Shown: one piece after another, positions 3,286 through 62,810 of the stretch | How positions within the stretch are numbered: position 1 is the first letter of the stretch | Layout of the letters: every line of letters begins with the position of its first letter | Made by a program: the position numbers and the translations under genes | Source: Accumulibacter sp. | Lineage (GTDB): Bacteria; Pseudomonadota; Gammaproteobacteria; Burkholderiales; Rhodocyclaceae | Assembly (NCBI RefSeq): GCF_023806625.1 | Contig: NZ_JAMTDX010000062.1 | Span: 51,722 to 115,721, forward strand | Length of the DNA stretch: 64,000 nucleotides | Direction: 5' to 3' | Notes under the pieces: model-generated | Databases searched by the model: none | Seen by the model: only the letters and a program-made list of their open reading frames with translations | Told to the model about the DNA's origin: nothing

Positions 3286-3804
3286 CTACTTGCACTGCAG
3301 CGCGTGCTGCACTCTGGAGGTCGAATCGGAGAACTTCCACATCTCCGCGGCGGGGTCGGTGAGCGAGGCGTTCACCTTCAGGTAGACGTTTCCATAGCCA
3401 TCGAAGTCATGACCCAGATTGCCCTGGATGCGGCCCTCCCTGTTGCACACGAGCCAGAAGCGCGCCTGGGCTGCCGTTTCGCCCTTGCCGAAGGTGACCA
3501 CGACGGCACTGATGATCGGATCGAAGTCCCAGGTCTTGTTCTCCCGGACGAGGAAGGCCACGGAGATTTCTTCCGGAGCTGGTTCCGACAACTTCGCCGT
3601 GAGCGTGAAATGTCTCCTGTCGGCTTCGCTCGATGCTCGCCGCGGCGGGCCGGGCCAACTCAAGTCGTAGCTGTTCCCTTCGACAGGCGAAAAATCTGCC
3701 GAAACGAGCCTGACGGTTCGTGTCGTCGATCCGAACTGCGCCAGGGCCGCGTCGGCCGCCAAGCCGACGAGCAGCGCGAGGGCAACCAATCTGGTCATGG
3801 CCAT
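3286..3804 (-). CDS. Secreted protein of unknown function
   Basis: A 172-residue protein not recognised as a named family. It starts MAMTRLVALALLVGLAADAALAQ, with the ATG at 3804 preceded by CAGGAGAG at good spacing, and has a clear Sec signal peptide cleaved near ALAQ. The mature part is beta-rich with regularly spaced segments (VRLVSADFSP, HFTLTAKLSEP, VAFLVRENKTWDFDP, ARFWLVCNREG, NVYLKVNASL), suggesting a periplasmic beta-sandwich. One cysteine in the middle and one near the C-terminus could form a disulfide. It lies on the same strand upstream of the PilZ-type gene and downstream of mgtE. Function cannot be assigned. Confidence 0.6.
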   Translation of the reverse strand: MAMTRLVALALLVGLAADAALAQFGSTTRTVRLVSADFSPVEGNSYDLSWPGPPRRASSEADRRHFTLTAKLSEPAPEEISVAFLVRENKTWDFDPIISAVVVTFGKGETAAQARFWLVCNREGRIQGNLGHDFDGYGNVYLKVNASLTDPAAEMWKFSDSTSRVQHALQCK

Positions 3805-45300: not shown

Positions 45301-46449
45301 TCAGTTAGGACCTCGGGCGAGCCGGAAGCCGATGTTGACGTTGCGGTAGCCCGCCTCGAAGTGGTAGCGGAGGGCGGAACGCAGGACCCTGCCGTCGTCG
45401 TACCACGAGCCGCCGCGCAACACGCGGTGGGCGCCCGACGGAGGCCCCTGCGGGTCCACCTGCGCCGTCGCCGGGTACTTGCCGTACCAGTCGGCACACC
45501 ATTCCCAGACGTTGCCGTGCATCTCGCAAAAGCCCCACGGATTTGCTGGTAGCGAGCCGACCGGCACCGTCTTCTGCCGAGACACGCCTTGCTCGCCGCC
45601 CGCGTACGGGCGGCGGCCATCGTAGTTCACCTGCTCGGGGGTGATGTTCGCGCCGAACGAGAACGGCGTCGTCGTCCCGGCGCGGCACGCGTACTCCCAT
45701 TCGGCTTCGCTCGGCAGGCGCTCGTCCAGCCCCCGGCGCGCTCGTCGCGCGGCGGCTGCCAGTCGAGCCGGCAGCGCTCGCCGAGCCAGAACACTTCGGC
45801 GTACAGGCCGCGCGCGTCCCGGCCGATCGCCCTTGCCCAGCCGGGCCTGGTCAGCGGCGCGATGGTCAGCTCGAGATGCTCGCCGTGCAGCGTAATCTGC
45901 GCCGGCTCGCCGAATCGGCGCGCCCGGCAGCCGCAACGACGCTCACCTCGATCGCCTGGTCGACGAGCGTCAGTTCGGCAAGCGGGCTGCCGGCGACGAG
46001 CGCTGGCGCGTCACCGGTCGCCGCGGCCTCGAGCCGAAGTTCGTCGCCGCGCTGCCGCAACACGCACTCGCTGCGCGGCGCCACCTCGCCGGCATCGCGC
46101 AGGGAGTAGGCGAGATCTTCGCCCCTGACGCCGGCCAGCCGCGCGCGTTGCGCGCGCTCGGCGAGTTCGCACGGCACGGCTTCGGCAGCCAGGTGGCAGC
46201 AGGCGAGCACTTCGGCGTGGCGCACCGAATCGGGCCGCGAGTCGTTTGCGAGGACTCGCGCACCGGCGAGCCACGCGGGCGGCGCCGGGCCGACGTCGGT
46301 GGCCGGATCGGGCTTGTGCTGGCGATGTTCGACGACTCGGTAGAAGCGCGTCTTCGGCAGTTCCGGCGGGCGCTCGGGAAGGGGCGGGGCACCCGCCAAT
46401 GCCCGTGCTTCGCCGATCGGCTCGACGACCGCGTCGGCGACTGCTGCTT
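45301..46449 (-). pseudogene. Decayed vWA-like/FGE-domain gene of a conflict cassette
   Basis: Fragments in different minus-strand frames, read 3'-to-5' of the plus strand: RFYRVVEHRQHKPDPATDVG near 46330, then the region equivalent to the middle of the intact protein at 52464 (LTRPGWARAIGRDARGLYAE, matching WALAWGRDRQGLFA), and finally the C-terminal half of an FGE domain (LPSEAEWEYACRAG, EMHGNVWEWCADWY, RVLRGGSWYDDGRVLRSALR). The middle of the vWA region and the first FGE strand are deleted, and a frameshift lies near 45740. Its C-terminus resembles a DGR variable region but differs from the template at non-adenine bases, so it is not a target. It follows the broken MoxR gene. Confidence 0.75.
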
Positions 46450-46989
46450 CACGCCTTGGCAGGGGCGTGTAGCCGAGTGCGGCCGCCGCCTGGGCGAGTC
46501 CGTCGTCGCCGTGCGCAGCCCAGACGCGCAGCAGGTCGGCGCGGCCGACCGCCGCTGTGCTCGTACTGGCGCTCTGCCGAAAGCCAGTCGAACACCCACC
46601 ACACCGCGCCCGGACTCAGGTCGTTGCGCTGCTCGAGGCGCTGCCGGACCTCTTCGGCGCTGCAGTGGTGTGCACCCATCGCCTGCGCGTCGCCGAGGCG
46701 GCCGAGCGCGTCGAAGCGCCATTGCAGGGCCTGACTCTCGCTGCGCGCATGCACGACCTCGGCGACGAACAGCCGGCCGAGCGCCTCGGCGGCCGCGCGG
46801 GCGAGCTGGCTCTTCCCCGATCCGGGTTCGCCGCGGACGAGCAGCGGCCGCTGCGCGGCGAGCGCCGAGCGCCGAGCGCACCGCCCACGCCGATTCGTCG
46901 TCGAAGCGGTGCACGGACTCGGGCCACGAGCCTCGTTGCGGCAGCGGGATTTCGGTCAGCGGAAGGTCGGGGATCGGGGTCAGGCTCAT
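46450..46989 (-). pseudogene. Decayed MoxR AAA+ ATPase gene of the TIR cassette
   Basis: ATG 46989 overlaps the TGA of the TIR gene (ATGA), as between the intact protease and MoxR genes at 51484. The first frame (PLTEIPLPQRGSWPESVHRF) matches the intact MoxR start DLPAIGSWPASRHRF, then a frameshift near 46870 moves the Walker A region (GEPGSGKSQLA) to another frame. The tail ends near VWWVFDWLSAERQYEHS, where the intact protein goes on to Walker B, so about half is missing. It joins directly onto remnants of the vWA-FGE gene. Confidence 0.8.
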
Positions 46990-48377
46990 CGCTTCTTGGC
47001 CAGCACTTCGGGAATCGTCAGGAACTCGCGCATCAGGCTCATGAAATAGTACTCGTCGCTGACCAGTAGCGCAGGTGTGCCGGCGTCGTCGTGGAAGACG
47101 ATCACCGCGAGATCGGGCAACTCGGCGACCAGGCGGGTTATCAGCCCGGGGCTGGCGAGCGCCGTGCTCTCGCCTCCAGGCAGCGCGATGTAATGGTGAA
47201 AGGTCTTCTGCTCGCGGCGCACGCGCAGCGTCGCGCCAAGGATGCGCCGGTCGGCCGCCGAGAGTTGCGCGCGCGATTCCTCGGGGAAGACGCATCGCCA
47301 CACTTCGAGCAGCAGATTCTCGAAAGCGGCGTCCTCGTCCCAGCCGCTTTCGCCCACCGGCACGCCGATCGCTCCCTCGCCGACGACCCCGCTCTTGTCG
47401 ATGCGCAGGCGGGGCGCCATCTCGCGCGAGCGCGAACTGACGATCTCGACGCCGAGCGGCGTGCTGACGCAGATCTCGAACGCCAGCCTGCCGGCGGCCA
47501 GCGCCTTGCGCGCGCCGCCGGCGAGCGACCGACTGTCGACGGCGAGCAGCGTCAGCCAGGCGAGCAGCGACTTGGCGGAGTTCCAGATGTCGGTGAAGCC
47601 GCCGGAGGAAGCGGCCGCAAGCGCAGCGAGACAGGCGCGCGTCGCCGGAAAGAGCACCTCGCCGATCGCCTGCTCGGGCGGCAGCGCACAGAGCGCCGCG
47701 GCGAGATCGCCGGCCGGCGTTCCTCCGGACGCCGGCAGACGGCTGCCCAGCGCGCCGCCGAGGCGAGCATCCCGCGCCAGAATCTCGCGTACTTCGCCGG
47801 CGATCGTCTGGCGAAACTCGTCCGGCGCGATGCGCTCGAGCAGCGCCGCAAAGTCACTGCCGAGATGGACGTCTTCGGTCAGCGCGTTCATGTCGGCGAG
47901 GATGCTCGTCAGCTGGTCCATCAGCCGGTGGAAGTCGGCGTAGTCTTCGAGGCTCCTGCGCAGTTCGAGCGTGTGCTTCGGGTCTCTGAGCCCATTGAGC
48001 GCCTGCTCGAGCTTCTCCTCTTCGGCGATCCAGTGCTTGATGAAGGCGATCCGGTCGCCCGGCTTGTGCAGGTGCGTTCCGGCGAGGACGACCGGATGGA
48101 CGCGCGCGCGGAAGTCGCGGAAATGTCGGTGCCTGTAGATGCCGCGCAACTCGTACATGCACGAATCGGAGCGGAAGTAGCTGTTGCTGAGCACGAGCAC
48201 GATGTGCTCGGCGGCGCTCAGCTCATCCATGAACTTGCGGATCGAGTCGCCGTAGCCAATCCTCCCCGTGTCGCGCACGAGTTCGATGCCGCGCTTGGCA
48301 CACGCCTCGGCGAGCTTGTCGACGAGCCGGTTCTGTCGTTCCTCGTTCCACGCATACGAAACGTAGACGCTGACCAT
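46986..48377 (-). CDS. TIR-domain effector fused to VMAP-like C-terminus
   Basis: A 463-residue protein. The TIR domain covers about residues 1-150: MVSVYVSYAWNEERQNRLVD, SAAEHIVLVLSNSYFRSDSC and the likely catalytic glutamate in CMYELRGIYRHRH. Bacterial TIR domains usually cleave NAD+ in defence. A linker and a second module of about 250 residues follow, ending YYFMSLMREFLTIPEVL, which resembles the end of the protease-VMAP protein at 50060 (LLLARICEFLTLL). This suggests a VMAP-type C-terminus that would contact a MoxR partner. The frame is intact, although its own MoxR and vWA-FGE partners are decayed. Confidence 0.75.
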   Translation of the reverse strand: MVSVYVSYAWNEERQNRLVDKLAEACAKRGIELVRDTGRIGYGDSIRKFMDELSAAEHIVLVLSNSYFRSDSCMYELRGIYRHRHFRDFRARVHPVVLAGTHLHKPGDRIAFIKHWIAEEEKLEQALNGLRDPKHTLELRRSLEDYADFHRLMDQLTSILADMNALTEDVHLGSDFAALLERIAPDEFRQTIAGEVREILARDARLGGALGSRLPASGGTPAGDLAAALCALPPEQAIGEVLFPATRACLAALAAASSGGFTDIWNSAKSLLAWLTLLAVDSRSLAGGARKALAAGRLAFEICVSTPLGVEIVSSRSREMAPRLRIDKSGVVGEGAIGVPVGESGWDEDAAFENLLLEVWRCVFPEESRAQLSAADRRILGATLRVRREQKTFHHYIALPGGESTALASPGLITRLVAELPDLAVIVFHDDAGTPALLVSDEYYFMSLMREFLTIPEVLAKKR

Positions 48378-50059: not shown

Positions 50060-51487
50060 ATGGTCAGGGATGCGCTCGTCTCGCTCTGGCGCTCGAAGGA
50101 TTCGACGGCGCTGGCCGACTTCGTGGCCAGCGGCTTCTTCGTCGCGCCGGCGACGGTCCTGACCGCCAGGCACGTCCTCGACGGCGGTGCGCTGCTGTGG
50201 GTGCGCGCGGCTGCTGACGCGACGACGGCGTATCCGGTCCTTGCGCCACTCTGCCACTCCGACCTCGATGTCGCGCTGCTGCGCATCGAGGCGGTGCCAA
50301 GCGGCTCGCGCTGGCTGGAGGCGAACAGCGCAGCGCAAGCCCCAGGCGATCTGTCGCTGAACGGTTTCTTCGAAGGCGGGTACGAAAACCCGCAGAAAGT
50401 CACCGCACTCCAGTTCGATCCCCAGGCCCGTCACTGGCTGATCGAGCCCAAGCAGCCGCCGGGGCACAGCGGCAGCGCGATCTGCTCCGGCGACCGCGTC
50501 TGGGGAATCGCCGTGCGCCACTACTCCGACCCCAACGTCCATCGCGGCTGCGTGCTCGGAATCCATCAGTTCGCCGACTGGCTGCGCGAGCAGTTGCCTG
50601 CACGCCCCGACCTTCTGCGGCGTCCGCCGCCGACTTGGGACGAGTGGCTCGCACGCTGGCGGGAGGTCATGACGAAGGCTTTCCGGAAGCCGGCCTTCGA
50701 AAAATTCGACGCCGTCGTCCGGCGTGACGGCGGCGGGCTGCCCGAGGCGCTCAACGACGCGCTCACCGGCGCGCAGCCCGAGCGTGCAGGTGACGCCTGC
50801 GTCGACGCGCTGATCGACCTCGTCGAGCACTGTGGCGAGGCCTTGCGCGACGACGAGCTGCTGCCCGCGGCGCACGAGCGTGGCTCGGCACGCGAAGCCT
50901 TCCTCGTGGCGATGGGCGCCGCCGCTCGACTGTGTCTCGACCCGGGGCACTTGCAGGCGCTGGGCATCGACCCGGCCGGCGAACTCGCGTCGGTCCTCGA
51001 CGTCGAGGCCAGCCGGGTCGCCGGTGCGGGAATCGCCGTGCGTCCGGCACCGCAGCATGCCTGGAAAATCGGAGACGATCGCGGCATACCGGTCGTGCGC
51101 GACCAATTCGCGCACGAACTGCCGCTCGAACTCGGCGCCGGCGAGAACCGCAAGCGCAAGTTGGCCAAGGCCGCGTTTCTCAGCGTCTCCCATCTCGACC
51201 AAGCGCCCGAGAAGATCGACGACGCGCTGCAGGGGACGATCCGTGGTCGAGCGAAGATCCTCGCGCGCAAGGGCCAGGCGCGGCTGCTCGTCCTCGGCCA
51301 GCGCCTGCCCGAGGAAGAACGGCGCGAGCTGCAGGAATGGGTGGCCAGCCAACTCGGCGTCAATCTGCTGACCCTGACGCCACCGGCCGCCGGCAAGGGG
51401 CTGTTCGTCTGCGACGAGGATCTGTTGCTCGCGCGGATCTGCGAATTCCTGACCCTGCTCTCCAACCCCGAATGGAACGTGAAATGA
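50060..51487 (+). CDS. Trypsin-like protease fused to VMAP-like module
   Basis: A 475-residue cytoplasmic protein (no signal peptide). The protease domain (about 1-185) has an apparently complete triad: His in VLTARHVLDGG, Asp in HSDLDVALLRI, Ser in PPGHSGSAICSG. The C-terminal half (WDEWLARWREVMTKAFRKPA to LLLARICEFLTLLSNP) resembles the VMAP partner of MoxR/vWA ternary systems. Known family: such systems hold an effector under control of MoxR ATPase and a vWA protein. Its stop overlaps the MoxR start (ATGA). Target of proteolysis is unknown. Confidence 0.8.
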   Translation: MVRDALVSLWRSKDSTALADFVASGFFVAPATVLTARHVLDGGALLWVRAAADATTAYPVLAPLCHSDLDVALLRIEAVPSGSRWLEANSAAQAPGDLSLNGFFEGGYENPQKVTALQFDPQARHWLIEPKQPPGHSGSAICSGDRVWGIAVRHYSDPNVHRGCVLGIHQFADWLREQLPARPDLLRRPPPTWDEWLARWREVMTKAFRKPAFEKFDAVVRRDGGGLPEALNDALTGAQPERAGDACVDALIDLVEHCGEALRDDELLPAAHERGSAREAFLVAMGAAARLCLDPGHLQALGIDPAGELASVLDVEASRVAGAGIAVRPAPQHAWKIGDDRGIPVVRDQFAHELPLELGAGENRKRKLAKAAFLSVSHLDQAPEKIDDALQGTIRGRAKILARKGQARLLVLGQRLPEEERRELQEWVASQLGVNLLTLTPPAAGKGLFVCDEDLLLARICEFLTLLSNPEWNVK

Positions 51488-52467
51488 ACACGACGCTTCC
51501 CGCCTACGACCAGAGCGAAATCGACCTGCCGGCGATCGGCTCGTGGCCGGCGAGCCGGCACCGCTTCAACGCGCAGCAGACCGGCGCGTTGCGCGCTGCC
51601 GAAGCCGCGGGCCGGCCGCTGCTCGTGCGCGGCGACCCGGGAACCGGCAAGAGCCAGCTCGCCCATGCCGCGGCGGTGGCCAGCGGCCGGCTGTTCCTTT
51701 CGGTCGTCGTCGACTCGCGCAGCGAGGCGAGCGACCTGCTCTGGCGCTTCGACGCCGTCGCCCGGCTCGCCGACGCGCAGCTCGCGGCGCTTCCGGGCGG
51801 CTGGGCACCGCGCGACCTCAGACCGGCGCGCTACGTCGAACCCGGCGTACTCTGGTGGGCGTTCAACTGGGAGGGGGCGGCAGAGCAACTCGCACACTGC
51901 CGTACCAGCGGCGTCGCTCCGGCCGATCCTGAAGAAGCTCCCGCCGACTGGAAGCCTGAGCGCGGCACGGTCGTGCTGATCGACGAGATCGACAAGGCCG
52001 AAGCCGATCTGCCGAACGGGCTGCTCGAAGCGCTCGGCAACGGCCGCTTCGGCGTGCCGCCGCTCGGTCGCGTCGTCTCGAGGCCGAAGAACGTTCCGGC
52101 GCCGCTGGTGATCGTCACCTCGAACGAGGAACGCGAGCTGCCGCCGGCGTTCGTGCGCCGCTGTCTGGTGCTGACGCTGGCGCTGCCGAAGGCGCCGGCC
52201 GAACTCGCCGAATACCTCGTCGACCTCGGTCGGCTGCATTTCTCGGCGCTGTACGCCCGCCACCCTGGCGTCCTCGCCACCGCCGCCGAACAGCTCATCG
52301 GCGATCGCCGCAGCGCTGCCGAAGCCGGTGCGTACACGCCGGGCCTCGCCGAGTATCTCGACCTGCTGCGCGTGCTCGAGCGGATCACCTTCGAGGGCGG
52401 CGGCGACCCGTCGGCCCATCTGCAGGCGCTGCGCGCCTTCTTCTTCGACAAGCAACCGCCAGAATGA
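51484..52467 (+). CDS. MoxR-type AAA+ ATPase
   Basis: A 327-residue ATPase. Walker A is VRGDPGTGKSQLAHAA near residue 50, Walker B LIDEIDKAEADLPNGLLEAL near 165, sensor 1 VIVTSNEERELPPAFVRRC with arginine finger candidates. The GVLWWAFNWEGAAEQL segment is shared with the broken MoxR copy. In MoxR-vWA-VMAP systems the ATPase is thought to license or release the effector after the sensor binds its ligand. Both ends overlap neighbours by ATGA, giving strict cotranslation. Confidence 0.9.
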   Translation: MNTTLPAYDQSEIDLPAIGSWPASRHRFNAQQTGALRAAEAAGRPLLVRGDPGTGKSQLAHAAAVASGRLFLSVVVDSRSEASDLLWRFDAVARLADAQLAALPGGWAPRDLRPARYVEPGVLWWAFNWEGAAEQLAHCRTSGVAPADPEEAPADWKPERGTVVLIDEIDKAEADLPNGLLEALGNGRFGVPPLGRVVSRPKNVPAPLVIVTSNEERELPPAFVRRCLVLTLALPKAPAELAEYLVDLGRLHFSALYARHPGVLATAAEQLIGDRRSAAEAGAYTPGLAEYLDLLRVLERITFEGGGDPSAHLQALRAFFFDKQPPE

Positions 52468-55394
52468 AGGCTGTGCGCCGTGCCCGCACGCGCCCCGGCG
52501 TGCTGCCGCCGCGGGCCAGCGCGGTCAGTCGTGCCGACCTCGCCTGGCTGCTCTACGTGCTGCCAGCCGGAGAAGCGCAGGGCTGTGCGGCGCTGCTCGG
52601 CTTCGCGCGCGAGGAAGAAGTGGTCGTGCAGCCAACATCGCCAGTGCCAACGGCGCCGCGCCCGCTGCAGCCACGCGAAGAGCAGGCAGCCCGTCGGCCG
52701 TTGCGCGCCGTTCACTTCGCGGTCATCGAACTGCAGCGGGTGCCCGCCGAAGGTGCAGAAGACGCGAGTCGCGCCGACGAATCCACCAAAGAACAGGCCG
52801 ATGACGTTTTCGCGACGCTGCAGCCCGAGCCGGGCGCCGTCGTCCCGGCTGCGTTGGCACTCAGCCCGCCGGCGCGGCTGGCCAGCTTCCTGCGCCGCAC
52901 GCTGCGTACCCCGGGCCGCGGGCGTGAAGTCGACGTCGATCGACTGCTCGCGCGTCTCGCTCGCGTCTCGCTGCCGCGGCGGTTGCCATTGCGCCGCTGG
53001 CTGCACTGGAGCGACGAAGCCGCGCTGATCGTCGACCTTTCACCGGCCGTCTGGCCGCTGCGCGAAGACCTCATCGACCTCGCCTGGCAGGCTGCTCGAG
53101 TTTCCGCCGGTCGGCTGCCGGTCTACGCGCGCCCGCCCGGCTCGGGCTGGTTGTGCCGACGCGCCGGCCGGCGCGGCGAATGGGTACCGGTCGACGAGGC
53201 GGTGCTCTCGAGCGCTCACCACTGGCTGCTCGCCGGTGACCCGGGCCATGCGTCCGCCGATTGCGCTGCTGGTCGCGAGTGGCAGAACCGCTGCCGCCGG
53301 CACCTCGCGACTGGCGGCACGCTGACCGTTCTTTGCGCCGGCTCGCCGTCGGAATGGCTGCGCCGCTTGCCGCGTCGCGGTCGCTGCGTCGGCTGGGATT
53401 ACGGCCGGCCGTTGCGCGCGCGCCGCCCCGGCGCGGCCGCCGCCGGCAGCGGCGCAGAGGCGGGCAGCGAGCGCCTGCTCGCTGCGCTGTCGCTGGCGGT
53501 CGTCGTCGAGCCGCCACTGCTGCGCGCGATCCGCGTCGCGCTCGGGCTGCCGCTGGCCGACGAACTCGCCGCCTGGAACCACGCCGACAGCGAAGCATGC
53601 GTCCTCGGGATGCAACTGCGCCAGGATCGGCTGTCCGCGCACCGGGGTCGGCTTGCCGGCGAGCCGCTGGCCGACCGGCAGCGCGTCGCGGCGCTGATCG
53701 CCGGCCATCATGTCGGCCATTACCGGGCGATCCGTTCCGAAGAGGCGGCGCTCGCCGTCGATCTCGCCGGTGTCGACGCCGACGAGGCCCGGGGCGACTG
53801 GGCGCGCGCGGTGCGCACGCTGCAGCGCGCGCCGCAGAGCGAGGCGGCGTGCGAGCTCGCCGCGTATCTCGGGCGCGCCGGGGGGCGCGCGCACGAGTCT
53901 CTGTGGCAGGCGCTGCCGGCACTTGCCGACGCCTACGTGATTGCCCGGCGCGCCGAGTTGCGCGCCGGTGAGGCGGTTCCCCCGGGGTTGCCCGGGCGCA
54001 GCCTCGAGCGCCTGCTCGCGCTGCCGGAAGAGACCGCCGTGCGTCGCCGCTGGTCGCTGCGTCTCTGCGGCCCGGCGCTCATCGCCGGCGTCGGTGCGCC
54101 ACAGGTGGGCGAGTTCGTTCTCGCCGAAGGCGAAGCCGTGACCGGGGTCGCGGTCGAGGCCGCTCGCGCGGCCAGGTTCTGGCAGTCGCTGCCGGCGAGC
54201 GACGCGGACCGCGTCCGGCTCGCTGCGTTGCGTTCCGGGGGCGGACCCTGGGTCGTGGCCAGCGCCCGCGAGCGGATCGTCGTCGCCGAAGTACCGCGGC
54301 CGTCGTGGGCGCTGGCCTGGGGGCGCGACCGGCAGGGCCTGTTCGCGGTGGCGCCGTCGCTGGCCGGCGAGCCGCTGCGACTGTACTGGTCGGCCGACGG
54401 CGAGGCACCGGCGGTCTGGCCGCCACCTCCCCGCGGATTCCGCTCGTCGGGGCAGGCAGTCGGGCGGGGTGTCCGGGTCGGTGCCGACCTCGAATACGGC
54501 CTCTGGCTCGACGTCGACATCGCCGGAGTCGTCCAGCGCTTCCGCTGGATCGAGCCCGGCGAGTTCTCGATGGGCTCGCCGGCGGACGAAGCGGGGCGCG
54601 ACGATGACGAAGGTCCGCGCCACCGCGTCCGGCTGACGAGCGGTTTCTGGCTCGCCGACACGGCGTGCACGCAGGGGCTTTGGGAGGCGGTAACCGGCAG
54701 CAACCCGAGTGTCTTAAGCGACGATCCGCGGAAGCCGGTCGAGACCGTGAGCTGGGACGACGTGCAAGAGTTCCTGCGCCGCGTCGAGGGTTTGCTGCCC
54801 GGCGTCCGTGCGGAGCTGCCGAGCGAAGCCGAGTGGGAATACGCGTGCCGGGCGGGCAGCGAAACCGCGTACAGCTGGGGCGACGAGCCGACGCCCGAAC
54901 GCGCCAACTACGGCACGGGCGGAACGGTACCGGTGAAGTCGTTCGCGGCGAACGCGTGGGGTCTGTACGAAATGCACGGCAACGTCTGGGAGTGGTGCGC
55001 CGACGGGAAGAGGACGTACGACGAAGCAGTGGTCGACGATCCGCGGGGTCCGGAAGGCGCGGATGCCCTGCGCGTCGAGCGCGGCGGCTCGTGGCTCAGC
55101 GGGGCCGGGTGGCTTCGCTCCGCGTCCCGCTTCCGGGGGCACCGCGTCGAGCGCTACGTCGACCTGGGCTTCCGTCTCTCCCTGAGGTCCACAGCCGCGG
55201 AGCGGGCGCCGGGCACGGAGCGCCTGGCGCAGGGTTCGCCGCCGGCCCCGGAGGGGTCGGCGGAGGCGGCGGCCGCCGCCGGAGGCGAAGGCCGCCGCGC
55301 GTCCGGAGCGGACGAAGGGGGCGAGCCAGGCGGGTTCGGGCGCGGGTCGCAGGCGAGCGCCGGTGCGTTTCGTCGTCCGCGCGCGAAGCGATGA
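52464..55394 (+). CDS. vWA-like protein fused to FGE (C-type-lectin-fold) domain; DGR target 1
   Basis: A 976-residue protein. The N-terminal 330 residues contain a degenerate SAV_2336/vWA-type region (LHWSDEAALIVDLSPAVWPL, PVYARPPG). A middle region of about 350 residues follows. The C-terminal FGE-like domain (about 690-908) has RFRWIEPGEFSMGSPADEAG, LPSEAEWEYACRAGSE and NVWEWCADGK. It lacks the catalytic cysteines of true formylglycine-generating enzyme in the GGSW segment, so it is probably a ligand-binding lectin-like domain. Residues about 868-908 are VR1. A 68-residue Ala/Gly/Arg-rich tail ends the protein. Its ATG overlaps the MoxR stop, and its own stop overlaps an ATG at 55391. Confidence 0.85.
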   Translation: MKAVRRARTRPGVLPPRASAVSRADLAWLLYVLPAGEAQGCAALLGFAREEEVVVQPTSPVPTAPRPLQPREEQAARRPLRAVHFAVIELQRVPAEGAEDASRADESTKEQADDVFATLQPEPGAVVPAALALSPPARLASFLRRTLRTPGRGREVDVDRLLARLARVSLPRRLPLRRWLHWSDEAALIVDLSPAVWPLREDLIDLAWQAARVSAGRLPVYARPPGSGWLCRRAGRRGEWVPVDEAVLSSAHHWLLAGDPGHASADCAAGREWQNRCRRHLATGGTLTVLCAGSPSEWLRRLPRRGRCVGWDYGRPLRARRPGAAAAGSGAEAGSERLLAALSLAVVVEPPLLRAIRVALGLPLADELAAWNHADSEACVLGMQLRQDRLSAHRGRLAGEPLADRQRVAALIAGHHVGHYRAIRSEEAALAVDLAGVDADEARGDWARAVRTLQRAPQSEAACELAAYLGRAGGRAHESLWQALPALADAYVIARRAELRAGEAVPPGLPGRSLERLLALPEETAVRRRWSLRLCGPALIAGVGAPQVGEFVLAEGEAVTGVAVEAARAARFWQSLPASDADRVRLAALRSGGGPWVVASARERIVVAEVPRPSWALAWGRDRQGLFAVAPSLAGEPLRLYWSADGEAPAVWPPPPRGFRSSGQAVGRGVRVGADLEYGLWLDVDIAGVVQRFRWIEPGEFSMGSPADEAGRDDDEGPRHRVRLTSGFWLADTACTQGLWEAVTGSNPSVLSDDPRKPVETVSWDDVQEFLRRVEGLLPGVRAELPSEAEWEYACRAGSETAYSWGDEPTPERANYGTGGTVPVKSFAANAWGLYEMHGNVWEWCADGKRTYDEAVVDDPRGPEGADALRVERGGSWLSGAGWLRSASRFRGHRVERYVDLGFRLSLRSTAAERAPGTERLAQGSPPAPEGSAEAAAAAGGEGRRASGADEGGEPGGFGRGSQASAGAFRRPRAKR
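55065..55186 (+). repeat. DGR variable repeat 1 (VR1)
   Basis: 122 bases aligned without gaps to the TR at 56998-57119. They differ at 17 positions, and in all 17 the template base is A; the changes are 9 to T, 7 to G and 1 to C. The other 99 non-A template positions in the repeat are identical. The last 20 bases (GGCTTCCGTCTCTCCCTGAG) are the shared initiation-of-mutagenic-homing (IMH) core. The next 55 bases are nearly the same as after VR2 but differ from TR. Confidence 0.95.
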
Positions 55395-55459
55395 GCGAAG
55401 CGCGGCAAGTGCTGGCGAAGTCTGCGGATTCCCGGTTCGATCGGGAGAGAGGTCAGTCG

Positions 55460-55930
55460 ATGAGTTTTCGTTTCTTCGTGATTCCGGTGATGCAGCCGCG
55501 TCCGGCCGAGGACGAACTCAACGACTGTCTGGCGAAGAACCGCGTGCTGGCCGTCGAACGCCATCTCGTCGACGCCGGGATGGCGTCGTTCTGGGCGGTC
55601 TGTGTCAGCCTCGCGCCCGGGCCCGGCCGGCTGCCGGAATCGCTGAAGGCCGACGCGCCAGGCGGGCGGCGGATCGATTATCGGGAAGTGCTCAACGAGG
55701 CCGACTTCGCGGTCTTCGCGCAGTTGCGCGCGCTGCGCAAGCAGATCGCCGAAAGCGAGGGCGTTGCCCAGTACGCGGTGTTCACCAACGAACAGCTGGC
55801 GAGCATGGTCCGCGCGCGCGTGCGGACGCGCGAAGCGCTCGGGGCGATCGATGGCGTCGGCGAGACCCGGCTCGACCGCTACGCGGAGCGCTTTCTCGCG
55901 CTGCTCGCCGAAGCGTCGGGCGATCGCTGA
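55460..55930 (+). CDS. DGR accessory protein with HRDC domain
   Basis: A 156-residue protein. MSFRFFVIPVMQPRPAEDEL begins a domain typical of DGR-associated HRDC proteins, followed by RVLAVERHLVDAGMASFWAV and the HRDC part (EGVAQYAVFTNEQLASMVRA, IDGVGETRLDRYAERFLALL). HRDC domains bind nucleic acid in RecQ helicases; in many DGRs such a protein occurs where phage elements encode Avd. ATG 55460 has GAGAGG upstream; ATG 55391, overlapping the target stop, would add 23 residues. It sits 11 bases before the reverse transcriptase. Confidence 0.85.
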   Translation: MSFRFFVIPVMQPRPAEDELNDCLAKNRVLAVERHLVDAGMASFWAVCVSLAPGPGRLPESLKADAPGGRRIDYREVLNEADFAVFAQLRALRKQIAESEGVAQYAVFTNEQLASMVRARVRTREALGAIDGVGETRLDRYAERFLALLAEASGDR

Positions 55931-55941
55931 GGGCAGCGCGG

Positions 55942-56964
55942 ATGCAGCGCCAGACGATCACCCTCGAAGCTCTGGCCGCGCGCGACAACCTCGCGCTGGC
56001 GACGTGGAAGGCAGCGAAGGGAAAGAGCAGCCGGCCGGCGGTCGCGCGCTTCCTCGCGGACCTCGACCGACAACTGGCGGCGCTCGCGGAAGCGATTCTC
56101 GAAGAGCGCGCGCCGCTCGGACGGGCGACTTGTTTCACGATTCACGATCCGAAGCGGCGAACGATTCACGCGGCGTGTTTTGCCGACCGCGTGCTGCACC
56201 ACGCAATCCTCAACCTCGCCGAGGCGCGCTTCGAGCGCATGCTCGTCGATGGCACGTACGCCTGCCGGCCGGGGAAGGGCGTGCACGCCGCGGTGCTCGC
56301 CGTGCAGCGCGGCCTGCGCTCGCGACCGTGGTTCGTGCAGGTCGACGTCGATGCGTACTTTCCGTCGATCCGCCACGACTTGCTGCTCGAGTTGCTGCGC
56401 CGCCGTTTCCGCGGCGAGCCTTTCCTCCGCCTGCTCGAACGAATTCTCGACCGGGCTGCAACCAACGGGCCTAGTGTCGGCCTGCCGATCGGTTCGCTGA
56501 CCTCGCAACACTTCGCGAACGCCTTTCTCGACAGTGCCGACCGTCTGCTGCTCGCCGAGCCGGGCTGCGGCTGCGTCGTCCGTTACATGGACGACCTCTT
56601 CTGGGTGTGTGACGACCGGCGGGTCGCCGAAACGAGCCTGGCCGCACTGCGCGCGCACCTGCTCGAGCAGCGCGGGCTGACGCTGAAGTCGAGCGTGCGG
56701 ATCGCGCGCAGCGAACAAGGGACCCGCTTCTGTGGCTTCCGCGTTCGGCAGGGCGTCGTGCTCGCCAGTCCGCGCAGGATGAGCCGCTATCGCGCGGCGC
56801 TGGCGCGCATCGGGCGCGCGGCGGACGAAGGTGTGGCCAGCGACGGCGAACTGCAGCGGGCGGTCGATGCGGCGCTGGCGACGCTTTGCGGCTGCCGGAG
56901 CGACGCCTTTCGCCGCCGCGTGCTCGAGGAGCTCGGCGCTGCGCGCGCGGATGCGGTGCTATAG
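55942..56964 (+). CDS. DGR reverse transcriptase
   Basis: A 340-residue reverse transcriptase. RT motifs in order: KRRTIHAACFADRVLHHAI, GTYACRPGKGVHAAVLAVQR, FVQVDVDAYFPSIRHDLLLE (catalytic D-x-D), LPIGSLTSQHFANAFLDSAD near 180, and RYMDDLFWVCDD near 213 with the YxDD box. The GxxxSQ form in motif 4, instead of QGxxxSP of retrons and group II introns, is diagnostic of DGR enzymes. No maturase or nuclease domain is present. It would copy the TR RNA with errors at A. The stop TAG is 33 bases before TR. Confidence 0.95.
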   Translation: MQRQTITLEALAARDNLALATWKAAKGKSSRPAVARFLADLDRQLAALAEAILEERAPLGRATCFTIHDPKRRTIHAACFADRVLHHAILNLAEARFERMLVDGTYACRPGKGVHAAVLAVQRGLRSRPWFVQVDVDAYFPSIRHDLLLELLRRRFRGEPFLRLLERILDRAATNGPSVGLPIGSLTSQHFANAFLDSADRLLLAEPGCGCVVRYMDDLFWVCDDRRVAETSLAALRAHLLEQRGLTLKSSVRIARSEQGTRFCGFRVRQGVVLASPRRMSRYRAALARIGRAADEGVASDGELQRAVDAALATLCGCRSDAFRRRVLEELGAARADAVL

Positions 56965-56997
56965 TGTGCGCCGGGATGTCCGTCGTCAGAGAGAAAG

Positions 56998-57119
56998 GCC
57001 CTGCGCGTCGAGCGCGGCGGCTCGTGGAACAACGAGGCCAGGAGGCTTCGCTCCGCGACCCGCAACCAGAGGCACCGCGACAAGCGCAACGACAACCAGG
57101 GCTTCCGTCTCTCCCTGAG
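56998..57119 (+). repeat. DGR template repeat (TR)
   Basis: A 122-base template between the RT gene and the second target. It contains 23 adenines before the IMH* region, including five AAC codons (in phase with the VRs), a typical DGR design that avoids stop codons after A mutagenesis. The flanking gap 56965-57366 contains no other recognised gene; the frame is open through it but lacks domain similarity. The TR RNA is expected to begin upstream (near the RT stop) and to end past 57150. Downstream, GAGCTCGATGGCCCGGAGCG replaces the VR flank (IMH* versus IMH). Confidence 0.95.
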
Positions 57120-57366
57120 CTCGATGGCCCGGAGCGCGACGACCGTCGCCGGATGGCGACGCCGCCCAGCGAAGCTGGCGCGAATCGGGAAGCCCGCGGG
57201 ACCGGCATGGATTTGTCGGAAGCCATGGACCAGACGCGACGTCCTGCCGCCGTGCGGCTGCGCGGCGGCGAACTGCAAGGCGCCCGGGGCGCCGGTAGGC
57301 GCGAACGGGGGATGCCGGCGCCGACAGCCTCCCGGGTCGCCGTCCTTTCCCGATCGGGGGGCGCCG

Positions 57367-58311
57367 ATGCCTGAAGCGCCTGTTCGTCCGCCGGCGGGCG
57401 AGGGGCCCCCGGCGCCCGGACGAGACGACGAGGACGGGCTCCCCGACGAGCGGCGCTGCCCGCCGCTGTGGCCACCTCCCTTTGTCTGCGCTTTCGGCGA
57501 CGACGCGTACGGGCTGTGGATCGACGTCGAGATCTCCGGAGTCGTCCAGCGCTTCCGCTGGATCGAACCCGGTGAGTTCTCGATGGGCTCTCCGGACAAC
57601 GAAACCGAGCGGTCCGACGGCGAAGGCCCGCGTCACCGCGTGCGGCTGACGGCCGGATTCTGGCTCGCCGACACCGCCTGCACGCAGCAACTCTGGCAGG
57701 CAGTGATGGGAAGCAACCCGAGCCGGTTCCAGGACGAAGCGCAGAATCCGGTCGAGAACGTGAGCTGGGACGACGTGCAGGACTTCCTCGGTGGAGTGCG
57801 GTCGAGCGTACCCGGAGTCACCGCCGATTTGCCGAGCGAAGCCGAGTGGGAGTACGCGTGCCGCGCGGGAAGCGAAACGCCGTTCTCGACGGGGCCGACG
57901 ATCGATACCGCGCAGGCGAACTTCGACGGCAACTACCCTTACGCGGGCGGCGAGCGAGGGATTGACCGCGAGAGGACCGTGCCGGTGAAGTCGTTCGCGC
58001 CGAACGCCTGGGGCCTGTACGAAATGCACGGCAACGTCTGGGAATGGTGCGCCGACGGGATGCGCGAGTACACGGACGAGACCGTCGACGACCCACGGGG
58101 TCCCGAAGGCGCCGGCGACTGGCGCGTCGTGCGCGGCGGCTCGTGGGGCCGCGGGGCCGGGGGGCTTCGCTCCGCGACCCGCTGCCGGTGGCGCCGCGGC
58201 GAGCGCCTCGACCTCCGGGGCTTCCGTCTCTCCCTGAGGTCCATAGCCGCGGAGCGGGCGCCGGGCGCGGAGCGCCTGGCGCAGCGTGCGCCGGTCGAGC
58301 GGGACGCGTGA
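57367..58311 (+). CDS. FGE-like C-type-lectin protein; DGR target 2
   Basis: A 314-residue protein. A proline-rich N-terminus of about 50 residues ends in CPPLWPPPFVCAF, resembling the AVWPPPPRGF stretch before the FGE domain of target 1, so it may derive from duplication of that 3' end. The FGE domain (about 58-291) has RFRWIEPGEFSMGSPDNETE, VMGSNPSRFQDEAQNPVENV, LPSEAEWEYACRAGSE, EMHGNVWEWCADGMREY and VVRGGSWGRGAGGLRSATR. The catalytic cysteines of genuine FGE are not conserved. Residues 252-291 are VR2. ATG 57367 follows a G-rich site; the frame from 57124 reads through TR flank. Confidence 0.85.
   Translation: MPEAPVRPPAGEGPPAPGRDDEDGLPDERRCPPLWPPPFVCAFGDDAYGLWIDVEISGVVQRFRWIEPGEFSMGSPDNETERSDGEGPRHRVRLTAGFWLADTACTQQLWQAVMGSNPSRFQDEAQNPVENVSWDDVQDFLGGVRSSVPGVTADLPSEAEWEYACRAGSETPFSTGPTIDTAQANFDGNYPYAGGERGIDRERTVPVKSFAPNAWGLYEMHGNVWEWCADGMREYTDETVDDPRGPEGAGDWRVVRGGSWGRGAGGLRSATRCRWRRGERLDLRGFRLSLRSIAAERAPGAERLAQRAPVERDA
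58122..58238 (+). repeat. DGR variable repeat 2 (VR2)
   Basis: 117 bases aligned to TR 57003-57119 without gaps. They differ at 20 positions, each an A in the template; 12 become G, 5 T and 3 C. Only three of the 23 template adenines are unchanged. The 20-base IMH core at the end is identical. Together with VR1 it shows two targets fed by one template. Confidence 0.95.
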
Positions 58312-59236: not shown

Positions 59237-60223
59237 TCAGGACGGAGCGAAAACGTCGTCGAGAGACGTCGCGTCGAGCACCCGAATCGCCCAATGTTCG
59301 AGCTGATCGGTCGTCGCCGCGGACAGCCGAGCCTGCACCGCTTCAGGCAGCGGCCCGAAGCGACGGGCCATCTGGCGCGCGAGAACGGCTGCTTCGCCGC
59401 GCTGCAGTCCCTGCTCGAGTCCCTGCTGCAGCCCCTGCTGCAGCCCCTGCTGCAGCCCCTTTTCGATGCCCAAGCGTTCGGCGGACGTGACGTACGGCAT
59501 GCTGACCTTCCTTTCGAGTTCATAGACCTCGTGCAGGAGTTGTCGTTCGAGTTCCTTCGGCAGGCGCAGCAACCAGTCGATGACGCCGAAGAGGTCGAGG
59601 ATTCGCTGGCGGTCCCAGTCGCGCTCGTAGAGCAACCGGGCGAGGCGCCACTTCGCCGCGTAGCGCCGCTGCATGTCGCCTCTGGTCTCGCGCGTATAGA
59701 GGTGGGCCGCGGTGACCAGCGCAAACGGATTCGGATCGGCGAGCAGCGGCTCGATCCGGTCCGCGTAATCGACGAGCTTGACCGCCGGAAAACGGATGCC
59801 CATCCGGCAACCGAAGAGCTCGTAGCCGTACGAAGTCGGCTTCCAGTCGGCGCGCTCGTCGGCGAGAACGGCCAGACTGGCGACCGGACGCCGGTAGCGA
59901 TCGTAGATCCGGTAGTTGTAGGTGAACAACCGCTCGGGGAAATCCCGGTCGGGTTCGCCCTGGACTTCGACATGGATGTAGACCCAGCGCTCTCCGTCGG
60001 CCAGCGTCGCCACCTGCACGAGCCGGTCGACGAGCCGCCGGCCGAGCGCGGCGTCCTGGACGACCTGTGCGAGCTCCTGGTCGAGAAAGACGTGCGGTCG
60101 TCGCCAGTCGATCCCGGCGTGGGCCTGCGGGAAGTAGAAGGCCATGAACTCCGGGAAGTAGCGCGCCAGCGCTTCCTTCCACGGAGTGTCGTAGTCGTCG
60201 TGAGGCAGGGTCTCGGGGTCCAT
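59237..60223 (-). CDS. Rpn/YhgA-like PD-(D/E)XK nuclease family protein
   Basis: A 328-residue protein of the recombination-promoting nuclease/transposase-like group. DYDTPWKEALARYFPEFMAF begins it; the nuclease core is ELAQVVQDAALGRRLVDRLV and GERWVYIHVEVQGEPDRDFP (E-x-Q type). AERLGIEKGLQQGLQQGLQQ starts a Gly-Leu-Gln repeat and a DUF4351-like C-terminus (RFGPLPEAVQARLSAATTDQ) ends it. Homologues cause RecA-independent recombination in E. coli. It is opposite to the DGR operon and close to decayed genes. Confidence 0.82.
   Translation of the reverse strand: MDPETLPHDDYDTPWKEALARYFPEFMAFYFPQAHAGIDWRRPHVFLDQELAQVVQDAALGRRLVDRLVQVATLADGERWVYIHVEVQGEPDRDFPERLFTYNYRIYDRYRRPVASLAVLADERADWKPTSYGYELFGCRMGIRFPAVKLVDYADRIEPLLADPNPFALVTAAHLYTRETRGDMQRRYAAKWRLARLLYERDWDRQRILDLFGVIDWLLRLPKELERQLLHEVYELERKVSMPYVTSAERLGIEKGLQQGLQQGLQQGLEQGLQRGEAAVLARQMARRFGPLPEAVQARLSAATTDQLEHWAIRVLDATSLDDVFAPS
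59410..59460 (-). repeat. 12-bp tandem repeat encoding GLQQ
   Basis: Four to five copies of a 12-base unit (CTGCTGCAGCCC on the plus strand) encode repeated GLQQ in the Rpn-like protein. Such repeats can expand or contract by slippage in steps of four residues, keeping frame. Confidence 0.7.
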
Positions 60224-60464
60224 CGTCGGTCGGTGCGCCCGGCGCGTCGGAAGAGTCGCGGCGATGCAGTCGGCAGCGCCATCGCCGCCGCCGATTCGCA
60301 GGCGATGTGGCTATGGTAGCGCAGCGCGGCCGTCCCGGGATCTGCGCGCGCTATACTTGCGGTGAGCGAGCGGGGGAGGGCGAGCGAGGGATCCTCGCCG
60401 GGCAGCGTCCGGCCACCGATCGCGCTTTCGATTGCTTTCCCCGGCCGATCAGCCGCCGACTCCG

Positions 60465-61685
60465 ATGAGCCTCCTTCTCCGTGCCGTCACTCTGCTCCAG
60501 CCACACCTCGGCGGGGACAAGCGCGCGACCTGGCTCGCGCTCGCCTTCGACGAGCAGCGGGCGATCTTCGACGCGATCGATCGCAGCGGCGCGCCGGACG
60601 ATTTCACCGTGCGCTGCGTCCGCGGCCTGCTCGACCGCGGCTGTGTCGGCTCGCGGCACGCGCTGTCGCTGCTCCTCGAAGTCGTCGCGAAGGCCGCGGG
60701 CAGCGAGGTCCAGGGCGAATTCCGCGCGCTGATCGACGAACTCGACCGCCGCTGCGCCGCGCCAACGCAGGCCGACCAAGGCCAGATCGGGCCGGCGACG
60801 CAGGTCGCGCCGTCGAGTCCCGTCGTTGCCGCGGCCACCGGCTCGCGACCGGCTGCCGCCGGTCGCCCGTTCGCCTCCACGCGCCGACAGCGGCGCTCGA
60901 CGATCCTGATGCTCGCCGCCAATCCCGGCGACACGACGCGCCTCGCGCTCGACCACGAGGCGCGGGAGATCGAACGGAAAATCCGCGCGGCCGAACGCCG
61001 CGACGCGCTCGACCTGCGCACGCAGTGGGCGGTCAGCCTGGATGACCTGCTGCAATACCTCAACCAGTACCGGCCGCAGGTCGTGCATTTCAGCGGGCGC
61101 GGCCAGGGGCAGGCGATCGTCCTCGACGACGGCACAGGCCACACCCGGCTAGTCGGAACGGCGGCGTTGGGCGCGCTGTTCGCGCTGCATCGCACATCCG
61201 TTCGCCTCGTCGTGCTCAACGCCTGCTACTCGAAGGGCCAGGCGGAGGCGGTCGTCGAGGCGGTCGACTGCGCGGTCGGGATGAACGACGCGATCGGCGA
61301 CCGGGCGGCGATCGTCTTTGCCGCCGCCTTCTACCGCAAGCTCGGCTTCGGCGCTTCGGTCGCCGATGCCTTTGCCGAAGCGCGCGTGGCGCTGCTGCTC
61401 GAAGGGATCGCCGAAGAGGACACGCCAGAGTTGCTGGTCCGCAAAGGGGTCGACGCAGCGACGGTCTTTCTCGCCGGGCAGGCGACGCGCCGCCGGCTGC
61501 CGCGGCGCTGGCCGCGCTGCGCGCGACGATCGTCGCTGGCGGCGCGGATCCGCTCGCCCTGCCCGAAGGCGAACTGCAGCGTGTCCTCCGTCACTCGCCA
61601 CGCGACCTCGACGAATACCGCCTGCTGCGCGTCGCCGAATGGTCGCAGCCGCGCTACGCGCTCGACCGCCGGTTCACCCGGCTGA
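60465..61685 (+). CDS. EAD1-CHAT protease-like protein with frameshifted C-terminus
   Basis: The first 340 or so residues hold an effector-associated domain 1 (SLLLRAVTLLQPHLGGDKRA, PDDFTVRCVRGLLDRGCVGS) and a CHAT caspase-like domain (RSTILMLAANPGDTTRLALD; His in VVHFSGRGQGQ; Cys in RLVVLNACYSKGQAEAVVEA). Near 61480 the frame shifts, and the last 65 residues are junk. The normal continuation (LRATIVAGGADPLALPEGEL) is in another frame, leading to a STAND NTPase. A TATACT at 60352-60357 is a possible -10. The protease part might still be made. Confidence 0.7.
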   Translation: MSLLLRAVTLLQPHLGGDKRATWLALAFDEQRAIFDAIDRSGAPDDFTVRCVRGLLDRGCVGSRHALSLLLEVVAKAAGSEVQGEFRALIDELDRRCAAPTQADQGQIGPATQVAPSSPVVAAATGSRPAAAGRPFASTRRQRRSTILMLAANPGDTTRLALDHEAREIERKIRAAERRDALDLRTQWAVSLDDLLQYLNQYRPQVVHFSGRGQGQAIVLDDGTGHTRLVGTAALGALFALHRTSVRLVVLNACYSKGQAEAVVEAVDCAVGMNDAIGDRAAIVFAAAFYRKLGFGASVADAFAEARVALLLEGIAEEDTPELLVRKGVDAATVFLAGQATRRRLPRRWPRCARRSSLAARIRSPCPKANCSVSSVTRHATSTNTACCASPNGRSRATRSTAGSPG

Positions 61686-62810
61686 CGCTGCTGCTCGACC
61701 AGGGGCCCGACGCGCAGGGTTCGCGCTGGCAGGCATAGGCGCGTCGGCAACCGTTCGACGACCTGCGCGACGTCCTCGCCGAGACACCCGACTCGCCGGC
61801 GCTGGTCGTGCTGGGACCGCCGGGCTGCGGCAAGAGCACGCTGCTGCGCCGGCGAAGTTCCACCGGCGGGTGCGGGTCCCGGCGATCCGCCCCCGATCAG
61901 CTTTTTCGTCCCGCTCAACCGCCATCGACCGCCGGCGGCCGGTGGCGAACCGCCGGCCCCGCGCGACTGGCTCGCCGACGAATGGGCGCGGCGCAACGCG
62001 AAGTCCGTGTCTCGCCTTCGCTGCGCGAGCGGCTGCAGCAGGCGCTCGTCGAACGCAGCCGGGACCCGGCGGCCGACCTGCGCGCGCGGATCGCTGCCGC
62101 CGGTCGTCGAGATTCCGGCAGGCGAGTACCCGATCGGCAGCGACGAGGGTCCCTACCATGACGAGGCGCCGGTCGATGAGGTGAAACTCGCGCCGTTCGC
62201 GATCGGGCGCTTCCCGGTGACCAACGCCGAAAGGCGGCTGTTCGTCGATGCCGGCGGCTACCAAGACGAGCGCTGGTGGCAGGGTGAGGCGGCGAAGCGC
62301 TGGCAGCGCGGCGAAGCGACCGACGAGGGGCCAAAGGAGCACTGGCGAACGGACCGCCGCTACCTGCGCTAGCACCCCGATTGGGCGGCGACCGCGTTGC
62401 GCGAAGGCCGGATCACCTCCCGACAGGCCGAACTCTGGGACGAGATCCGGCAGATGTCCGACGACGAGTTCGAGAGAACGCTGCGCGACTGGTATCCCGG
62501 CGGGCGGCAGCGCGAACCCGCGCACTGGAACGACCCGGCGTACCACGACGCGAGCCAGCCGGTAGTCGGCGTCTTCCCCGGCGGCGACACTCCCGAAGGC
62601 GTGTCGGACTTGACCGGCAACGTCTGGGAATGGACGAGCAGCGCGTACGAAGCGTACCCTTACCGAGCCGATCGCCGGCGCGAAGACCCCGAGCGGACCG
62701 ATGCCCGGCGCGTGGTGCGCGGCGCCTTCCGCTACGTCGACGTTCCAGGCTACCGGAACCACTACCTGGGGTTGCGGTTGGTGTGTTTCTCCCCGATCCT
62801 GGACCGCTGA
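61686..62810 (+). pseudogene. Broken STAND NTPase and FGE-domain remnant
   Basis: This continues the EAD1-CHAT gene. A stop (TAG) follows GSRWQA near 61737; the P-loop [12 protein letters not shown] lies at 61813 in another frame; the rest of the NTPase is lost. From 62098 an FGE-like domain ([40 protein letters not shown]) is interrupted by TAG at 62370-62372 and then resumes (YPGGRQREPAHWNDPAYHD, LTGNVWEWTSSAYEAYPY). The end resembles FGE but not the DGR variable repeats. Confidence 0.8.

Follow-up and report, generated by a model that had tools for sequence, protein, structure and literature searches.

Within a 64,000-nt stretch of the Accumulibacter sp. genome (GCF_023806625.1, contig NZ_JAMTDX010000062.1, positions 51,722 to 115,721, forward strand; hereafter the window), we identified a complete diversity-generating retroelement (DGR). 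It comprises a reverse transcriptase (RT), an accessory gene, one template repeat (TR) and two target genes in cis, whose variable repeats (VR1 and VR2) depart from TR exclusively at adenines within the repeat core. All components proposed in an initial annotation of the locus were thereby found. The DGR is likely to be the 3' part of a MoxR-type conflict operon (Table 1). More tentatively, and with a likelihood that we place just short of even, the locus may encode a modular anticipatory immune receptor, in which a DGR-diversified lectin sensor on a degenerate vWA domain is driven by MoxR and joined to executioners that are swapped by lineage (trypsin-like, TIR, SEFIR, CHAT-like or DUF4062). 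The HRDC identity of the accessory protein, the operon, a second DGR and a relic module in the window were absent from the initial annotation.

Table 1 Features of the DGR operon, the relic module and the second DGR. Coordinates refer to the window unless a locus (L) or contig (C) handle is given.
Feature	Location	Strand	Basis
Trypsin-like peptidase protein, putative effector, first operon gene	50060..51487	+	Pfam Trypsin_2 9e-7 (scan from 50069)
MoxR-type AAA ATPase	51484..52467	+	Pfam AAA_5 6e-12; bpMoxR 0.019, below cut-off; NCBIfam MadB ATPase 3e-18, 66 bits versus 475
Long DGR target, 976 amino acids	52464..55394	+	FGE-sulfatase 2e-40; VR1 inside C-terminal FGE/C-type-lectin domain, residues 695-905
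Probable degenerate vWA domain	long target, about residues 130-420	+	model, weak profile matches
VR1	55065..55186	+	changed relative to TR: 17/24 template A, 0/98 non-A (over TR 56998-57119)
HRDC-domain accessory protein, 156 amino acids	55460..55930	+	Pfam HRDC 4e-18
DGR reverse transcriptase, 340 amino acids	55942..56964	+	Pfam RVT_1 4e-13; GxxxSQ and YMDD motifs
TR	56998..57119	+	24 A, every one at codon position 1 or 2 of the target frame
Short DGR target, 314 amino acids	57367..58311	+	FGE-sulfatase 1e-41; start codon uncertain, frame open from 57124
VR2	58122..58238	+	changed relative to TR: 20/24 template A, 0/93 non-A (over TR 57003-57119)
TIR protein gene, open, head of decayed second module	46989..48377	-	TIR_2 5e-12; 54% identical to L093 operon TIR protein
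MoxR gene remnant, N-terminal part only	46533..46989	-	75% and 70% identity to L093 MoxR in two pieces, residues 1-150
Broken long-target gene ending in FGE fragment	45307..46552	-	4 tblastn pieces to L093 long target
Orphaned relic VR	45309..45435	-	versus L093 TR: 15/29 A, 9/95 non-A differ
Second DGR, RT and HRDC genes	L050:3392-4956	-	
Second DGR, TR	C56 about 85391-85517		

Three repeat copies lie in register in the window, at 55065, 56998 and 58117. Program alignment bore out the positions of TR and both VRs as well as the 17 (VR1) and 20 (VR2) differences first counted by eye, all of them at template adenines. VR1 carries 9 A>T, 7 A>G and 1 A>C changes, and VR2 carries 12 A>G, 5 A>T and 3 A>C; over TR 57003-57118, the concentration of changes at A relative to non-A sites is highly significant (Fisher exact p = 3e-15 for VR1 and 8e-19 for VR2). 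The initial annotation had counted 23 available adenines, which holds if the last one (57118) is left out, while the number is 24 when it is counted; this base is part of the 3' constant end and is the same in VR1 and VR2, which may explain the lower figure. At the 3' boundary, TR and VRs are identical through 57119 and then diverge. Since non-A differences begin directly outside the repeats, from 57120 on one side and 5' of 56998 (VR1) or 57003 (VR2) on the other, the earlier statement that no non-A difference is seen stands for the repeat core and fails for the flanks, and we limit the adenine-only claim accordingly. The 23 TR adenines other than 57118 are spread over 17 codons, so that ~1.7e13 protein variants are possible per target, with a stop codon reachable in a single one of these 17 codons. 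A hairpin is predicted 3' of both VRs but is no stronger than in shuffled sequences (z = +1.4 and -0.4); a hairpin or cruciform at this place is therefore not used as evidence, its weakness being a point against the assignment.

The RT translation contains GLPIGSLTSQ and YMDD, in agreement with the motifs named earlier, and its closest solved relative is 8ub7_A (3e-31), an entry named reverse transcriptase that we take to be the Bordetella DGR RT. Assignments as a group II intron, retron or DRT defence RT were rejected because every model scored far below its curated cut-off (group II, 98 bits versus 300; Drt3a, 35 versus 200; retron St85, 29 versus 235; Drt5, 21 versus 550). In PADLOC, 49 families match the RT (best 1e-36) with models that carry no curated cut-offs. 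Both VRs lie at the C-terminal end of FGE/C-type-lectin domains, and the two targets are paralogues, with 447 of 580 aligned bases identical 5' of the VR. The closest solved relative of the short target is the Treponema denticola variable protein 1 (2y3c, 1e-20).

RT matches with E <= 1e-20 occur in 34 of 395 genomes of the family, our genome included. They amount to 59 matches (2 in the own genome), the weaker of which are possibly other RT types. As related loci we considered those outside matches (57 in all) that reached E <= 1e-70, 14 in number, together with 5 distinct loci from a named collection, giving 19 in total; L032 and L034 of that collection were taken as L086 and L085 and not counted separately. 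L095, on contig C41 of the own genome, was also scanned for TR and VR and gave nothing; it is no DGR locus and stands outside the 19. The scan required >= 5 A and <= 2 non-A changes per 90 bases and reports the longest stretch without a non-A mismatch, so that zero non-A counts in the relatives arise by construction. TR/VR pairs varying at A were found in 16 of the 19 loci, with a clean stretch of at least 110 bases in 14 of them (78 in L083 and 96 in L086), and 12 of these 16 carry a VR at 1.8-2.0 kb before TR and another at 0.9-1.0 kb after it. Three loci (L084, L085/L034 and L094) yielded no pair, which counts against the favoured explanation; the L085/L034 contig ends at the RT, and the HRDC and RT matches of L094 are shortened. 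Four further scan matches (L090, L093, L091 and L031; 48-84 bases with 2-4 A changes) were dropped as conserved parts of paralogous targets or as lying on the opposite strand. Across 32 TR/VR pairs, which include two from the second DGR described below and omit its gapped third VR as well as an inverted VR of L033, a total of 527 adenines out of 838 have been replaced, 251 of them by G, 207 by T and 69 by C. The VR omitted from L033 (~3470-3580, reverse strand) is a second VR opposite to TR and RT in which 19/24 A and 0/87 non-A sites are changed, and thus represents an inverted target. Among viral contigs we found no confirmed relative of the RT. The 94 phage and 176 plasmid records that match all show < 60% identity, so no close mobile source is seen.

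Recent activity of the DGR, as the initial annotation had suggested, is well supported as the best reading of these sequences, although it is an inference that carries no timing. The VR cores match their own TR at all 93 non-A sites, whereas 5' of the VR 107 of the 477 non-A sites aligned between the target genes differ (22%); given this mean rate, finding 0/92 non-A differences in the core has p = 7e-11. The TR of L081, the nearest relative found (RT 75% identical to the window RT), differs from the window TR at 9/92 non-A and 2/24 A sites, and from VR1 and VR2 at 10/98 and 8/92 non-A sites, respectively. The VRs thus track their own TR, as would be expected from recurrent rewriting. The ratio of nonsynonymous (dN) to synonymous (dS) divergence from L081 is low both for the RT (dN 0.19, dS 1.05, dN/dS ~0.18) and for HRDC (dN 0.17, dS 0.89, dN/dS ~0.19), with dS near 1 in both comparisons. 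Because 17-20 changed adenines out of 24 come close to the 75% expected under full randomisation, the rounds of rewriting are not readable from this count.

The predicted operon runs in the order trypsin-like protein, MoxR-type ATPase, long target, HRDC, RT, TR and short target, and the MoxR gene overlaps both the trypsin-like gene and the long target by 4 bases each. Its assignment to the MoxR group draws on the weak bpMoxR and MadB matches (Table 1). Judged from gene arrangement, the DGR is the 3' part of this operon, and the gene order is kept in relatives. A MoxR gene is present in 15 of the 19 related loci, and those without it (L031, L033, L037 and L086) are short or start at the HRDC or target gene. 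In 13 relatives the long target starts at the MoxR gene end; in L035 and L036 the two lie some hundred bases apart. The gene before MoxR was found in 14 relatives, 10 of which were run against Pfam: it matches TIR in L093 and L091, SEFIR/TIR in L082 and L087, DUF4062 in L083 and L084, CHAT just under the cut-off in L090 and trypsin under the cut-off in L035, with no Pfam match in L089 and L081. In L092 and L094, where Pfam was not run, it gives a full-length match to the TIR protein of the window's relic module. By these domain matches, the position before MoxR is occupied by different effector domains in different relatives. A structure model of the window's trypsin-like protein was discarded as too poor (mean predicted local distance difference test score, pLDDT, 42).

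How the variable repeats arose, whether they are still being rewritten and what the rewriting serves can each be read in another way. One alternative is that three paralogous FGE 3' ends were shaped by ordinary gene conversion or duplication, without any reverse transcription; it would draw on the paralogy of the targets seen 5' of the VR. However, each of the 37 differences sits at an adenine of a single copy, with the Fisher probabilities given above; this template copy lies outside both target genes and adjoins a DGR-type RT, and a like pattern recurs in 16 of the 19 related loci, so that we regard this explanation as practically negligible. A DGR that worked until not long ago and is now silent, leaving the VRs as frozen products of the last rounds, is a more serious contender but still unlikely. 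It gains from a relic VR and a decayed module within the same window, from relatives whose loci look decayed (shortened HRDC and RT in L094; no TR/VR in L084 and L094), and from the evidence itself, which compares one genome with its relatives and gives no direct sign of ongoing activity. Against silence stand the 0/98 and 0/93 changed non-A sites in two separate VRs, as opposed to 22% divergence outside the VR, and RT and HRDC genes that are open with low dN/dS. The initial annotation had named non-A substitutions at similar frequency as one observation that would overturn it, and the counts for the repeat core show none.

It is likewise improbable, in our estimate, that the DGR diversifies a surface or adhesion protein to which the MoxR and protease neighbours are incidental. 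C-type-lectin DGR targets do serve as display proteins elsewhere, as in Treponema TvpA and Bordetella Mtd, but here the MoxR gene overlaps both of its neighbours, and relatives share this order with a first gene that varies between TIR, SEFIR, CHAT-like and DUF4062 types. Under the conflict-operon reading, which we favour, TR RNA would be copied to complementary DNA (cDNA) by the error-prone RT with the help of HRDC, adenines being misread, and the cDNA would take the place of VR1 or VR2, with its anchor in the 3' constant end; these steps are modelled on general DGR biology. From the architecture, the long target would act as a sensor whose variable lectin tip binds a ligand, a phage antigen or other, and which docks to the MoxR ATPase through its degenerate vWA domain. 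Ligand binding might then unleash the trypsin-like effector, and the short target may provide a second variable binding module. Against this scheme, the defence role is putative and read from operon architecture, and the C-terminal part of the trypsin-like protein gave no VMAP match in Pfam at E 10.

The N-terminus of the long target is probably a degenerate vWA domain, an assignment that is not proven and for which a model and weak profile matches speak. A structure model built from 16 orthologues reached pLDDT values of mostly 70-90 over residues 130-420, and a Foldseek search with it returned four PDB matches at E <= 0.001, namely the Treponema variable protein, two PvdO chains and, at 8e-5, chain G of a NorQD complex; a further NorQD entry followed at 0.002. 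We take NorD to be a vWA protein and NorQ to be its MoxR-type partner. Because NorQ fills about six chains per entry (29 chains across the 5 listed NorQD-series entries), chain G was taken as NorD. VWA_CoxE matches appeared in 2 of the 16 members (best E 0.0009, both below the Pfam cut-off) and are colinear with the profile (L092, 35-100 to profile 19-86; L087, 140-204 to profile 143-205). The 16-sequence profile matched one CoxE-like protein (E 2e-4) over a segment that includes its DISGSM motif, as compared with E 0.64 for an unrelated AAA protein. Aspartates at positions 80 and 148 of the N-terminal stretch are invariant, and L092 retains DYSRS, a DxSxS-like motif.

Other results weigh against this assignment. 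At E 10, Pfam finds nothing but FGE in the long target, and its N-terminal stretch in the window has no vWA match at E 1. The model is moderate overall (mean pLDDT 63.5), and the Foldseek output names neither the matched part of the model nor chain G. The match to the CoxE-like protein reaches an hhalign probability of only 44%, a second CoxE-like protein was not matched (E 0.17), and the N-terminal profile found no vWA chain among solved structures, its one match being at chance level (E 0.07). Solved-structure searches that might have named chain G did not do so, either with the CoxE-like protein (2 unrelated matches, E > 0.5) or with the window MoxR (35 weak matches, Midasin best at 0.001 and NorQ at 0.5).

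The genome-wide search for more VRs suggested in the initial annotation returned four places at E < 0.001 besides TR, VR1 and VR2, and none of them fits the window TR as a VR: the TR and the third VR of a second DGR on contig C56, a relic at 97036 of the window's contig, and a stretch on contig C9. The second DGR is also of HRDC type, with an RT 38% identical to the window RT and an HRDC gene, and serves three FGE targets located in L050 and L049. Two of its VRs carry 25 and 20 changes at 30 A with 0/97 non-A sites changed, and the third, ~13 kb from TR, shows changes at 15/27 A and 0/95 non-A sites with a 3-base gap. Near these targets lie Hsp70, GrpE and AAA genes, one AAA being fused to a protein kinase. 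The C9 stretch (L051:6695-6815) was rejected as a VR because, compared with the L093 TR, its adenines are kept (1/24 differ) and its other sites changed (24/84), the reverse of a VR. It is an orphan TR-like stretch rich in AAC codons, lies by eye between genes resembling purM and an endonuclease-family gene, and has neither an RT nor a VR that we could find. An FGE gene on C41 was likewise rejected as a VR, with 27/94 non-A differences from its best-scoring TR.

The relic belongs to a decayed module on the minus strand (45307-48377) that ends about 1.7 kb before the operon and still begins with an open TIR gene (Table 1). The genome search turned up no more than two RTs of this kind, and we therefore consider the relic VR an orphan, of another DGR lineage, that is drifting at ordinary sites. 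Set beside the 0/93 of VR2, it may illustrate what a VR without a TR looks like. Downstream of the DGR, the plus strand encodes a CHAT-EAD8 protein (60432-61685) and, behind it, an FGE stretch that contains a TAG in frame (about 62097-62738), together another conflict-type module; the FGE stretch, near 62.6 kb, was rejected as a VR (20/67 non-A differences from the best-scoring TR). Next to the DGR, a DUF4351 protein, which resembles Rpn-type transposase-like nucleases, is encoded on the minus strand (59237-60223).

If the sensor reading is true, bacteria of this family carry receptors that reverse transcription has diversified in advance and that are coupled to interchangeable killing modules. 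With its single TR, two VRs and varying effector gene, the cassette conserved in the relatives offers a comparative set for asking what selects variants. The vWA assignment, if true, would tie clade 5A targets mechanically to their MoxR partner; the seemingly domainless N-termini of clade 5A would then be vWA domains, and these loci true MoxR-vWA systems.

Our comparison with known systems draws on parts of the papers cited. An HRDC accessory gene adjoining the RT is described for the Treponema denticola DGR (PMC4891356), and the window resembles that element both in this respect and in the best solved match of its short target, a T. denticola variable protein. There, unlike in the window, the accessory gene lies between TR and RT, and no MoxR operon is described in the parts considered. 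The DiGReF survey (Schillinger et al. 2012, PMC3521204) reports the SQ motif, 19 DGRs with two VRs, and different DGR types in one organism, with Candidatus Accumulibacter as an example; the SQ motif and multiple VRs recur in the window, whereas a conflict-operon context is not described in the portions of the survey covered. Kaur et al. 2020 (PMC7159879) define vWA-MoxR-VMAP ternary conflict systems with FGE and DGR association. The window shares with them the MoxR ATPase, a peptidase or nucleotide-signal effector, a protein with C-terminal FGE where theirs is a vWA protein fused to FGE at its C-terminus, and the DGR link, but its proteins lack a Pfam vWA or VMAP match at E 10. The vWA reading, the effector swaps within one cassette, the relic module and the orphan TR were not met in the cited literature as far as covered. 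Close counterparts are also found in the clade 5A type of MoxR-associated 'ternary' DGR conflict systems, described from multicellular bacteria (Doré et al. 2024, PMC10907252), with several DGRs per genome and Accumulibacter named among the organisms. In its architecture, the window operon matches these systems. Where the N-terminal extension of clade 5A targets is reported there without a predicted domain, that of the window's long target scores as a probable degenerate vWA. In conclusion, the DGR type is already known, and what is new is mostly what the rewritten protein is attached to.

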